In this document: piece by piece, positions 43,343 through 47,458 of the stretch
Layout of the letters: the number at the start of each line of letters is the position of its first letter
How positions within the stretch are numbered: position 1 is the stretch's first letter
NCBI RefSeq assembly: GCF_009184395.1
Contig: NZ_WEIC01000001.1
Span: forward strand, 1,134,047 to 1,198,046
DNA length: 64,000 nucleotides
Direction of reading: 5' to 3'
DNA from: Amylibacter sp. SFDW26
Lineage (GTDB): Bacteria; Pseudomonadota; Alphaproteobacteria; Rhodobacterales; Rhodobacteraceae
Position numbers and translations under genes: made by a program
Notes under the pieces: generated by a model
The model's input: only the letters and a program-made list of their open reading frames with translations
Database searches by the model: none
Told to the model about the DNA's origin: nothing

Positions 43343-43555
43343 TTATCCGCGGCCTGATTTCCAGACCTGAAACAATACAACCAACGCCCAAAACAGCGCG
43401 GCAAGTGCAGCGAAATCGAACAAGAACGCATAGCGTACAGGCAGTCCGATCATTCCGCCAATCCAAGAGGCCCCCATCCAAGCTACAATCGCCACCAAAA
43501 TGACGATCGAAGCAACCCGCGCCTTTTGGCGCTTTGGATCAGGTAAAGGGGCCAC
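43343..43555 (-). CDS. DUF5337-like small membrane protein in the complex I operon
   Basis: A 70-residue protein with two hydrophobic helices (about 14-35 and 43-64) and short basic ends. It resembles the small DUF5337 proteins I remember from the same operon position in Rhodobacterales. It lies 12 bases upstream of nuoF. Function is unknown; position suggests an accessory or assembly role at the membrane. Confidence 0.7.
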   Translation of the reverse strand: MAPLPDPKRQKARVASIVILVAIVAWMGASWIGGMIGLPVRYAFLFDFAALAALFWALVVLFQVWKSGRG

Positions 43556-43578: not shown

Positions 43579-44442
43579 CTACTTACGCTTCTTCTTTGAA
43601 AATTCTGTGTCGCCACCTTTGGCTAGAACTTTCGCTTGCTTCATCCAATTGTCGCGTTCGATGCGACCTTTGAATTTCAGTTGGTCATCTACTTTCTTGA
43701 TGTCCGCTTTTTTCCAAACAGCAACCTGTTCGTATTTATAAACGCCGATATCGTTCAAGGTTTTCTCCAACTTAGGACCAACGCCAGAGATCAACTTAAG
43801 ATCATCCACTTTTGCTGGTGCCTTCGTATAGAATTTAGCTGGTGACGCTTTTTTCGCCGCTGCAGGCTTAGCCGCCGCTTTTGCTTTTGGCGCAGCTTTT
43901 GCTGCTACAGGTTTTTTAGCCGCTGCAGTTTTTGTTTTGGCAGTCGACGTGGACTTAGCTGCAGTTTTCTTTGCAGGAGCCGCTTTTTTCGCCGCTGGCT
44001 TCTTCGCCGTTGCAGGTTTAGCCGCCGCTTTTGCCTTAGGCGCAGCTTTTGCTGCTGCAGGCTTTTTAGCCGCTGCAGTTTTTGTTTTGGCAGTCGACGT
44101 GGACTTAGCTGCAGTTTTCTTTGCAGGAGCCGCTTTTTTCGCCGCTGGCTTTTCCGCAGCCGCTGATGTCGCAGCAGTTGCTGTTGCAACAGCACCCGCA
44201 CCTACAGCCGCTGCTGCAGTTGTTGACGAAACAGTTGATGATGCATCATCCGCACAGAACATACCTTTTAAAATCCAGCCAGCTAGAAGCATTGCTATCA
44301 ATCCAATAACAGCTGCAAGCAATCCATGTATACTAACCCAGTGAATCAATGCTGCTGCTACGAAAATTCCCAAAGCAAATGCCAACAACCAACACACGAT
44401 AGAACATGTGGTAAGGCCGTTGGATGAGTTATTATCAGTCAT
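43579..44442 (-). CDS. membrane protein with Lys/Ala repeats and a helix-hairpin-helix domain
   Basis: A 287-residue protein: two transmembrane helices (about 13-58), a long basic low-complexity region (about 85-215) made of Ala/Lys units, and a C-terminal helix-hairpin-helix block (LKLISGVGPKLEKTLNDIGV, then FKGRIERDNWMKQAK and GGDTEFSKKKRK). The same C-terminal block is fused to the NuoE C-terminus in rhizobia and Brucella, as far as I recall, so this looks like the detached form. The basic region contains a tandem 150-bp duplication. It probably belongs to complex I in some accessory way; DNA binding by the HhH block is not implied. Confidence 0.72.
   Translation of the reverse strand: MTDNNSSNGLTTCSIVCWLLAFALGIFVAAALIHWVSIHGLLAAVIGLIAMLLAGWILKGMFCADDASSTVSSTTAAAAVGAGAVATATAATSAAAEKPAAKKAAPAKKTAAKSTSTAKTKTAAAKKPAAAKAAPKAKAAAKPATAKKPAAKKAAPAKKTAAKSTSTAKTKTAAAKKPVAAKAAPKAKAAAKPAAAKKASPAKFYTKAPAKVDDLKLISGVGPKLEKTLNDIGVYKYEQVAVWKKADIKKVDDQLKFKGRIERDNWMKQAKVLAKGGDTEFSKKKRK
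43852..44150. repeat. near-identical 150-bp tandem duplication inside the Lys/Ala-rich gene
   Basis: Bases 43852-44000 match 44002-44150 with only a few substitutions, an offset of exactly 50 codons. The unit encodes one copy of the PAAKKAAPAKKTAAKSTSTA-type block. The match at the DNA level, including silent positions, indicates a recent duplication. Confidence 0.9.
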
Positions 44443-44486: not shown

Positions 44487-45209
44487 TCATTTCGCGGCAG
44501 TTGTCTTCCGCGGTTTCAGTACTGGAACTTCATCCCCTTGGATACGTTTTACCGTATCTCCATAGTCTAACGCTAAGGTTGCTGAAGCATTGTTGGCGTA
44601 TTTGCCAGAATCCATGTCTTTGAGAGTGGTCACACCACCCAATGGCTCCGCCGCATAGCGACCGTTTTGCGGACCAGGTGTTGGCACCTTTCCATCCGCA
44701 AAGTCTGCGATGATCTGTGTAAACGTCTCCACAGTCAAATCTTCATAGAAATCTTTCCCGATTTGGGCCATCGGTGCATTTGTACATGCGCCCAAACATT
44801 CAACTTCTTCCCAGCTGAATTTGCCGTCTTCGGATATTTGGTGAGGGTTCGGCGCGATCTTATCTTTACATACACCGATCAAATCTTCTGCACCGCAGAT
44901 CATGCAGGATGTTGTGCCACATACTTGGATGTGCGCCACTGTTCCCACTGGTTGCAATTGGAACATGAAATAGAACGTCGCAACTTCTAAAACACGGATA
45001 TAGGCCATGCCTAGCATATCAGCCACATACTCAATGGCTGGCTTAGACAACCAACCTTCTTGTTCTTGAGCACGCCAAAGCAGCGGAATAACACCAGAGG
45101 CTTGACGGCCTTCTGGGAATTTCTTCAACTGAGCTTGCGCCCATTTCTGGTTCGCAGCTGTGAATTCAAAGCTGTCAGGTTGTGTATGATGTAAACGACG
45201 CAATGACAT
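44487..45209 (-). CDS. nuoE: NADH-quinone oxidoreductase subunit E
   Basis: A 240-residue thioredoxin-like subunit holding the [2Fe-2S] cluster N1a. Ligands are C97, C102, C138 and C142 ([11 protein letters not shown] and [10 protein letters not shown]). The ATG at 45209 shares one base with the stop of the upstream small gene (TAATG), so the TTG nine bases earlier is not used. The C-terminus from about 165 is an extension relative to E. coli NuoE; it lacks the helix-hairpin-helix block that here is on the next gene. Confidence 0.95.
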
Positions 45210-45532
45210 TATTTGCAAAATCCTGATTTGATAACCAAGCTATCGCCCTGAAGCATAGCTTGTGAATGTTTGGAAAGACCTGTCAAAACATTGTTGATGG
45301 CTTTTTTAGATTTGATGCTGCGCTTATCAAACTCATTTTTCCAGTCTGCTTTTGACAATGTGCAATTCGTAGCAGCAGCTACCGCTCCCAACTCTTTTGC
45401 AAATTTTGGGTAGCCTTTATTCTTTGCCACACGCTTGCTGGTGAATTTTGAATCTAAATTCGTAATTTCCGCCAAAGCGGCTACGGGGCTGAATGAGATC
45501 AGAGCGATCGCAGTCAATGTAACAAATCTCAT
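45209..45532 (-). CDS. small exported protein between nuoD and nuoE
   Basis: A 107-residue product with a clear signal peptide ([21 protein letters not shown]). The mature part is basic and has two cysteines ([12 protein letters not shown] and the terminal GFCK), suggesting a disulfide. Its ATG overlaps the nuoD stop by four bases and its stop overlaps the nuoE start by one, so it is translated with the complex I subunits. I do not recognise the family. Exported, and therefore on the periplasmic side if it acts on complex I. Confidence 0.72.
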
Positions 45533-46740
45533 CGATCAATCTCCCCAAAAACAACGTCCATGGTACCAATAATGGCTGCAACGTCAGCCAATTGGTGGCC
45601 TTTGCAAATATGATCCATCGCTTGCAGGTGCAAATATCCTGGCGCACGAATTTTGGTTTTATATGGTTTGTTTGTGCCGTCAGAAACAAGATAAACACCA
45701 AACTCACCTTTTGGTGCTTCCACAGCAGCATAAACTTCGCCCTCTGGAACGTGGAAGCCTTCGGTGTAAAGTTTGAAGTGGTGGATCAAAGCTTCCATCG
45801 AAGTCTTCATATCACCACGTGATGGCGGTGTTAATTTACCACGTGCTAAAACGTCACCCGTTGAGGCTTCTAATTTCTGGATCGCCTGTTGCATAATGCT
45901 CAAGCTTTCGCGCATTTCCTGCATACGGCATAGGTAACGATCATAGCAGTCGCCATTTGTACCGACAGGAATTTGGAAATCAAACTCGTCATAGCATTCA
46001 TATGGCTGCGCACGACGCAAATCCCATGCCATTCCAGAACCGCGCACCATCACACCAGAGAAACCCCAATCAAGGGCTTCTTGTTCCGAAATCACAGCGA
46101 TATCAACGTTACGCTGCTTAAAGATGCGGTTTTCAGTCAACAGACCGTCGATATCTGCAAGCACCTCTGGGAATTCCAAAGTCCATTGCATGATGTCATC
46201 AAGCAAATCCTGCGGCAGGTCTTGGTGAACACCACCCGGGCGGAAGTATGCTGCGTGTAAACGCGCACCACAGGCACGCTCGTAGAACACCATCAGTTTT
46301 TCACGCTCTTCAAAGCCCCAAAGCGGCGGCGTAAGCGCACCAACATCCAAAGCTTGTGTTGTGATGTTTAGAAGATGATTTAGAATGCGGCCGATTTCAG
46401 AATATAGAACACGGATCAAAGAGGCACGACGCGGCACCTCTACACCTGTTAGTTTTTCGATCGCCAAACACCAAGCATGTTCTTGGTTCATCGGAGCCAC
46501 ATAATCAAGGCGGTCAAAGTATGGAAGGTTTTGCAGATATGTTCTGCTTTCCATCAGTTTTTCTGTACCGCGGTGCAGCAGGCCAATATGCGGATCGCAA
46601 CGCTCTACCAGCTCGCCATCCAACTCCAACACCAAGCGCAAAACACCGTGTGCCGCAGGGTGTTGCGGACCGAAGTTGATGTTGAAATTACGAATACGTT
46701 GTTCGCCCGTTTTCGCATCATTAAATTGAGAGCCGTCCAT
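45529..46740 (-). CDS. nuoD: NADH-quinone oxidoreductase subunit D
   Basis: A 403-residue subunit related to the large hydrogenase subunit, forming the quinone site with Nuo[23 protein letters not shown] near 27-48 includes the quinone-site His; [12 protein letters not shown] near 57 and the C-terminal DVVFGEIDR are intact. The ATG shares one base with the stop of the preceding 35-codon gene. Confidence 0.97.
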
Positions 46741-46847
46741 TATTTACGATCCTCCGCACGAACCACTGCACGTTTTGCAGCTTTCTTGTTGCGCAATGCA
46801 GTAGCGAACAATGCTGTTGCCGCCAATATAAAAGCAATTACTTCCAT
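46740..46847 (-). CDS. 35-residue membrane peptide between nuoC and nuoD
   Basis: A 35-codon frame reading [19 protein letters not shown] followed by a basic tail ([16 protein letters not shown]). It has one hydrophobic helix with the positive end expected in the cytoplasm. Its ATG shares a base with the nuoC stop (TGATG) and its TAA shares a base with the nuoD start (TAATG), so a ribosome can pass nuoC, this frame and nuoD without leaving. A frame exactly filling the gap with a coherent membrane-peptide design argues for a real gene. Function is unknown. Confidence 0.75.
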
Positions 46848-47458
46848 CACTTCGCCCCTTCTGCATTTTCATCACCTGGTAAGATGTATTCTGCACCTTC
46901 CCACGGGGACATAAAATCAAACTGACGGTATTCCTGCACAAGGGATACAGGCTCATAAACTACGCGTTTTTCCGCTTCGTCATAACGACACTCTGTATAT
47001 CCCGTTGTTGGGAAATCCTTGCGTAATGGATATCCGCGGAAACCATAATCTGTCAGGATACGACGTAAATCTGGATGACCCGAGAACATGATACCGTACA
47101 TGTCAAACACTTCGCGTTCGAACCAATTCGCCGCTGGGAATGGCTCCGTTACTGTTGGCACAACTTCATCCTCTGCCACAGACGCTTTTACGCGGATGCG
47201 GTGATTCATATACATAGACAAGAAATGGTACACCATTTCAAACCGCTTTGCGTTCGATGGGTAATCAATTGCAGTAATGTCAATCAAAGTCGAAAACTTG
47301 CAGCTACGATCTGATTTAAGGAACTCCAGAAAGTCCGGCAATGAAGACGGTGCAACCTCAACAACAAGCTCGCCCAAATCATTTACAAACCAACCCAAAA
47401 CCGCAGCAGATTGTTTGCTTTCGATCAACGTGCCTAGATCTTGCATTTCTTGTGACAT
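46847..47458 (-). CDS. nuoC: NADH-quinone oxidoreductase subunit C
   Basis: A 203-residue hydrophilic subunit of the peripheral arm. The signature block [39 protein letters not shown] spans about 111-150. Normal length, separate from NuoD (not fused as in E. coli). Six bases after nuoB. Confidence 0.97.

Follow-up and report, generated by a model that had tools for sequence, protein, structure and literature searches.

The nuoC and nuoD genes of Amylibacter sp. SFDW26 are separated by a short stretch of DNA, raising the questions of what occupies it and whether its product belongs to complex I. We examined this junction within a window of 64,000 nucleotides (the whole stretch of DNA analysed; contig NZ_WEIC01000001.1, positions 1,134,047 to 1,198,046), where the following features were placed:

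46740..46847, minus strand: 35-residue putative microprotein ORF, ATG to TAA (frame and translation; hydropathy, AlphaFold2, codon use)
46847..47458, minus strand: nuoC, 203 aa (PF00329, E 3e-47; NF004733)
45529..46740, minus strand: nuoD, 403 aa (PF00346, E 2.7e-119; TIGR01962)
46855..46860, minus strand: AAGGGG, Shine-Dalgarno-like, 7 nt 5' of the ORF ATG and within nuoC (sequence)
46751..46755, minus strand: GGAGG, Shine-Dalgarno-like, 10 nt 5' of the nuoD ATG and within the 3' end of the ORF (sequence)

The 35-residue frame is codirectional with the nuo operon and fills the junction exactly. Its ATG (46847-46845) and the nuoC TGA (46849-46847) have one A in common, giving TGATG, and the last A of its TAA (46742-46740) is the first base of the nuoD ATG (46740), giving TAATG. 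The initial annotation had described this filling frame and both overlaps, and our reading agrees with it and adds the strand (minus), which had been left unstated. The start signal of the ORF was also found in relatives, where AAGGGGCGAAGTG precedes the nuoD ATG of a relative with an empty junction (L102) and the ATG of the insert in a relative with a filled one (L100); the signal thus stands before nuoD in the empty L102 and before the inserted ORF in filled relatives. Among the matches listed, the nearest named records had NuoD 91-93% identical to that of the window, three of the four being Amylibacter and one HTCC2255.

Considering codon use, start signals, rarity and a design that recurs in relatives, the frame is very probably a real gene. 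The peptide contains one hydrophobic stretch (Kyte-Doolittle mean 2.12 over its best 17 residues) with a predicted helix at about residues 3-18, followed by a basic tail at residues 19-35 (17 residues, net charge +6). AlphaFold2 modelled a single helix from residue 2 to 34 with a mean pLDDT of 75.5 and a pTM of 0.33, a low value expected for a lone helix. A spanning ORF appeared in 0.09 of 600 dinucleotide shuffles of the insert and a spanning ORF with a hydrophobic helix in 0.005 (0.5%); among shuffles with an open frame, 0.6% had a helix at least as hydrophobic as that of the window. The synonymous-codon log-odds of the ORF, using a codon table from 12 long window ORFs (six of them nuo genes by Pfam), was 7.63, a value reached by 0.3% of 3715 open dinucleotide shuffles (P 0.003; mean -0.3), by 1 of 138 open off-frame stretches (mean -2.4) and by 20 of 131 in-frame stretches (mean 4.8), the last of which had also trained the table. 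The earlier view that one hydrophobic helix and a basic tail mark the frame as non-random is therefore upheld by the shuffles, the codon use and the exact placement, and from these properties we infer that the frame is translated and its product inserted in the membrane.

No family in Pfam or NCBIfam was matched by the peptide at E 1, and a PDB search returned an unrelated, designed-looking chain as its best match (E 0.33); the best PDB match of profile A2 had an E of 0.76. A search with the single peptide against 295 genomes of the family matched only its own genome below E 0.25, with 16 others at E 0.255-0.98, and so gives no support to a subunit conserved across the family. A profile of four rows, searched against 394 genomes, gave 129 genomes at E 0.5 or lower (0.0046 for the best one apart from its own), and these matches, judged by their scores, are taken as noise.

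We then compared the junction among closer relatives. Thirty of the 33 genomes in the genus survey gave nuoC, and all 30 junctions were readable. Eighteen of these had nuoC directly against nuoD and 12, including the window, carried an insert, so that 18 of the 29 readable congeners other than the window source had none. The sister genome G324 has NuoC and NuoD 98% and 99% identical to those of the window (91% and 89% for DNA), and its junction encodes a different peptide of 48 residues, MEFTFALFIILSSVLTAGIVLFSRKMQIKQVVAKCPNRDISKSGSEYF, with TAATG at both ends. The initial annotation had proposed a small complex I subunit or assembly peptide and named absence of the frame in close relatives as evidence against it; a conserved subunit is not borne out by the differing peptide of G324 and the empty congeners, and such absence is what we observed.

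The insert DNA of G324 aligned to that of the window with a score of 13 (shuffle mean 10, P 0.10), so that DNA kinship of the two inserts was not demonstrable. Simulated drift (33% change, 39 nt inserted) gave a median score of 22 and a 5th percentile of 13. Synonymous change between the two genomes was 0.36 in nuoC and 0.50 in nuoD, the nuoD comparison leaving out L102, L100 and L020, whose rows were out of register. Because of these simulated scores and this synonymous change, the G324 insert is compatible with either a replacement or a fast-drifting ortholog. Under both, the peptide sequence appears not to have been held between the sisters while NuoC and NuoD were. Using one scoring scheme, the insert DNA of three other relatives gave lower P values against the window (L020, 0.022; L107, 0.032; L105, 0.048), reflecting either chance or kinship.

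To describe the junction more widely we collected 199 nuoC-nuoD junctions, comprising 80 from named loci (the best 80 of 589 matches), 30 from the genus (the window counted once) and 89 from the family (the highest-ranked of 377 nuoC-bearing genomes). The named and family samples lean towards relatives because they were taken from the top of rankings. Five junctions were unreadable (L082, L087, L176, L191, L196), and the 194 readable ones included 176 that were distinct, with 53 empty (<40 nt) and 123 filled (>=40 nt). Crude text rules, which wrongly placed L018 among the two-span peptides and the first ORF of L202 among the one-span ones, sorted the filled junctions into those with a two-span peptide (55), a sulfotransferase-like gene (46), a one-span peptide (26), a helix-less small ORF (16), an NTF2-like gene (10) or a GFA gene (4), with one example of each larger-gene class checked using Pfam. 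Two filled junctions had no ORF (L093, 51 nt; L208, 46 nt). The site between nuoC and nuoD is a variable slot, in which relatives carry different proteins, frequently short membrane proteins, or none. No description of this slot was found in the titles and abstract beginnings of papers listed from an open-licence library.

In the size range of 80-200 nt there were 33 distinct inserts, and each was spanned by one ORF ending at most 8 nt from both neighbours (2.0 of the 33 expected from shuffles). A hydrophobic helix was present in 27 of the 33 (0.25 expected), 13 being two-span and 14, including the window, one-span; the remaining six were spanning and non-hydrophobic (L027, L051, L070, L167, L171, L188). 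Because related inserts were counted separately and are not independent, the number of events is lower than either count (33 or 27) implies.

Several further observations were made on these loci. The sulfotransferase-like genes found in 46 of the 123 filled junctions encode about 280-350 residues, and one was identified as PF13469. In six one-span inserts (L018, L020, L060, L090, L094, L107) the FFKK-like stretch after the helix is encoded by a run of T and then a run of A, as in TTTTTTAAAAAAA of L018, and an inverted repeat, judged by eye, often comes after it. One record titled Nocardioides marinus (L061) has a NuoD 88% identical to that of the window over 402 residues, with nuoC adjoining, and is probably mislabelled or contaminated. 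The nuo clusters of Rhodobacter capsulatus and Paracoccus were reportedly published with unidentified reading frames. A search of 275 genomes directed at Paracoccus (E 1e-92) yielded 15 matches, the best 81% identical and so without P. denitrificans; the four loci kept had sulfotransferase-like genes (L246, L248), a GFA-like gene (L249) or nothing (L247).

The nuoC-nuoD junction is not alone among nuo junctions in carrying large gaps. Gaps of at least 100 nt were present at 56 of 78 loci between nuoC and nuoD, 48 of 80 between nuoD and nuoE and all 69 between nuoE and nuoF, and at 4 of 74 and 9 of 75 loci between nuoA and nuoB and between nuoB and nuoC, respectively. Within the window, an ORF of 107 residues with a signal-peptide-like start lies between nuoD and nuoE (45209-45532, minus strand), a gap that is also variable in relatives; Pfam gave no family above the cut-off for this ORF. 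A two-span protein of 70 residues containing DUF5337 (PF17272, E 2.1e-25) lies between nuoE and nuoF (43343-43555, minus strand). An ORF of 287 residues after nuoE (43579-44442, minus strand) matches the NuoE model PRK12373 (400 positions) over its second half, positions 187-396, and nuoE itself matches positions 1-238, so that a long form of NuoE seems to be split in two in the window.

Among the slot peptides, the best matches to that of the window were the 36-residue peptides of three congeners, L116 (E 0.011), L127 (0.078) and L122 (0.14), from genomes G310, G306 and G323, respectively. As in the window, each of these is encoded by the last ORF before nuoD with a TAATG overlap, and has one helix, a basic tail, RK as its last residues and an CGTAAATAATG end; unlike in the window, one or two two-span ORFs precede it. 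The L116 peptide is identical to that of the window at 14 of 35 residues. Of 572 hydrophobic decoy ORFs, one scored as well as or better than L116, 7 than L202, 10 than L127 and 67 than L122, so that the L122 peptide scores like a decoy. The single decoy as good as L116 (L017) came from a search that had used the window peptide itself, as did the loci of several other high-scoring ORFs, and none of 110 basic-tail decoys was as good as L116. The window insert had no DNA similarity to the inserts of these three peptides (P 0.20-0.74), and the L116 peptide had zero matches in 101 genomes of the order, a set that contained no known positive, so that this empty result carries no weight. Kinship of the window peptide with the three is only suggested, at a little better than even.

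These look-alikes (L116, L122, L127) are under purifying selection, with dN/dS of 0.20, 0.13 and 0.16, respectively. One-span pairs elsewhere ranged from 0.26 to 0.73, including L018/L020 at 0.70 and L105/L107 at 0.73, and six two-span pairs had values of 0.10-0.33. The two-span peptides (55-73 residues; about 55 of the 123 filled junctions by the crude rule) had no Pfam or NCBIfam family, and a PDB search with one of them gave no relative. They resemble the window peptide in slot, coupled ends and membrane-spanning character, and differ in having two helices and a conserved motif (LLPxFGI..W, e.g. L072, L023) absent from the window peptide.

We consider it probable that the frame encodes a translated, translationally coupled and lineage-specific single-span membrane microprotein of 35 residues, the current occupant of the variable slot. 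The main rival is a neutral or near-neutral proto-gene, in which inserts are tolerated only with an open frame that keeps NuoC and NuoD coupled and the peptide is inert. The spanning of all 33 inserts, the fast sequence change between sisters and the patchy presence are each in keeping with this, and a dispensable proto-gene would also fit that patchy presence together with the weak sequence constraint in several one-span pairs, such as L018/L020 and L105/L107. However, an open frame alone leaves the excess of helices unexplained, and the gene-like codon use of the window ORF and the low dN/dS of the look-alikes (0.13-0.20) speak against it; we regard a proto-gene as possible though fairly unlikely.

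The role first proposed, that of a stoichiometric small subunit of complex I or a peptide dedicated to its assembly, appears more doubtful still. The location of the ORF within the nuo operon, where genes of two Q-module subunits flank it, the helix and basic tail of its product and the purifying selection on the three look-alikes would agree with such a role, but a supernumerary subunit of this kind would be expected to be present in relatives and to match a known one, and with near-identical NuoC and NuoD the sister has another peptide, most congeners have none and Pfam, NCBIfam and PDB chains gave no match. As given in the parts of the report considered here, the extra subunits of the Paracoccus denitrificans complex I structure are NDUFS4, NDUFS6, NDUFA12 and PIMT (PMC11522691). 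Mass spectrometry could miss a peptide of 35 residues, since two small hydrophobic core subunits escaped mass spectrometry of gel bands according to the portion of a second report considered (PMC8115037).

The window peptide also invites comparison with CydX of cytochrome bd, a small single-span subunit of a respiratory enzyme and one of a group that is conserved and co-purifies. Having one hydrophobic helix and fewer than about 50 residues, and being encoded within the operon of a respiratory complex, it is like CydX in size, helix and location, and unlike it in showing no conservation between sisters and in having no hit in Pfam at E 1.

That the spacer is instead an RNA element (a processing hairpin, attenuator or coupling structure) and no protein gene is very improbable, for although its predicted fold contains a stem and inverted repeats were seen by eye in three inserts (L018, L099, L105), the fold does not exceed that of shuffled sequence (z 0.19 and -0.16), giving none of the above-chance structure of a leader peptide or attenuator, and the codon use is protein-like. 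Positions 46400-47200 also lack a promoter-like site, and their single terminator-like site (0.7 expected) lies on the opposite strand. A type I toxin was considered as well, the absence of a promoter-like site being the one result that bears on it.

Under the preferred reading of a coupled microprotein, ribosomes ending NuoC at TGATG would restart directly on the overlapping ATG of the ORF, aided by AAGGGG, and would restart again on nuoD at TAATG, aided by GGAGG. The helix would enter the membrane and leave the basic tail on the inner side, following the positive-inside rule. The peptide probably acts through its gross properties, a membrane helix plus basic tail synthesised at the membrane next to NuoC and NuoD, as an optional accessory of complex I production that helps to make or place the Q-module there with no specific conserved contact. 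Such a function is the most economical because the sequence is free while the helix and the coupling recur. The six inserts whose spanning ORF is not hydrophobic count against this reading, as does the failure of the searches to give an ortholog of the window peptide from which to compute dN/dS. The peptide probably represents an optional addition to complex I, not one of its conserved parts.

The short occupants suggest a rule by which they are coupled at both ends, mostly membrane-spanning and free to change in sequence. A stronger form for the Rhodobacteraceae, which we offer as speculation and think improbable, is that the slot is sequence-agnostic: selection would keep gapless translation of a nascent membrane helix between soluble Q-module subunits, tethering the nuo polysome where the membrane arm is built, and unrelated peptides that are coupled and membrane-inserting would be interchangeable. 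For annotation, such a rule would be a warning that the nuoC-nuoD junction hides genes of 35-73 residues. If the slot rule is true, the operon of a well-studied and conserved enzyme would carry fast-turning, unannotated microproteins whose common trait is a coupled membrane helix, and both the origin of new membrane microproteins and the role of translation order and membrane tethering in the building of complex I would become testable.
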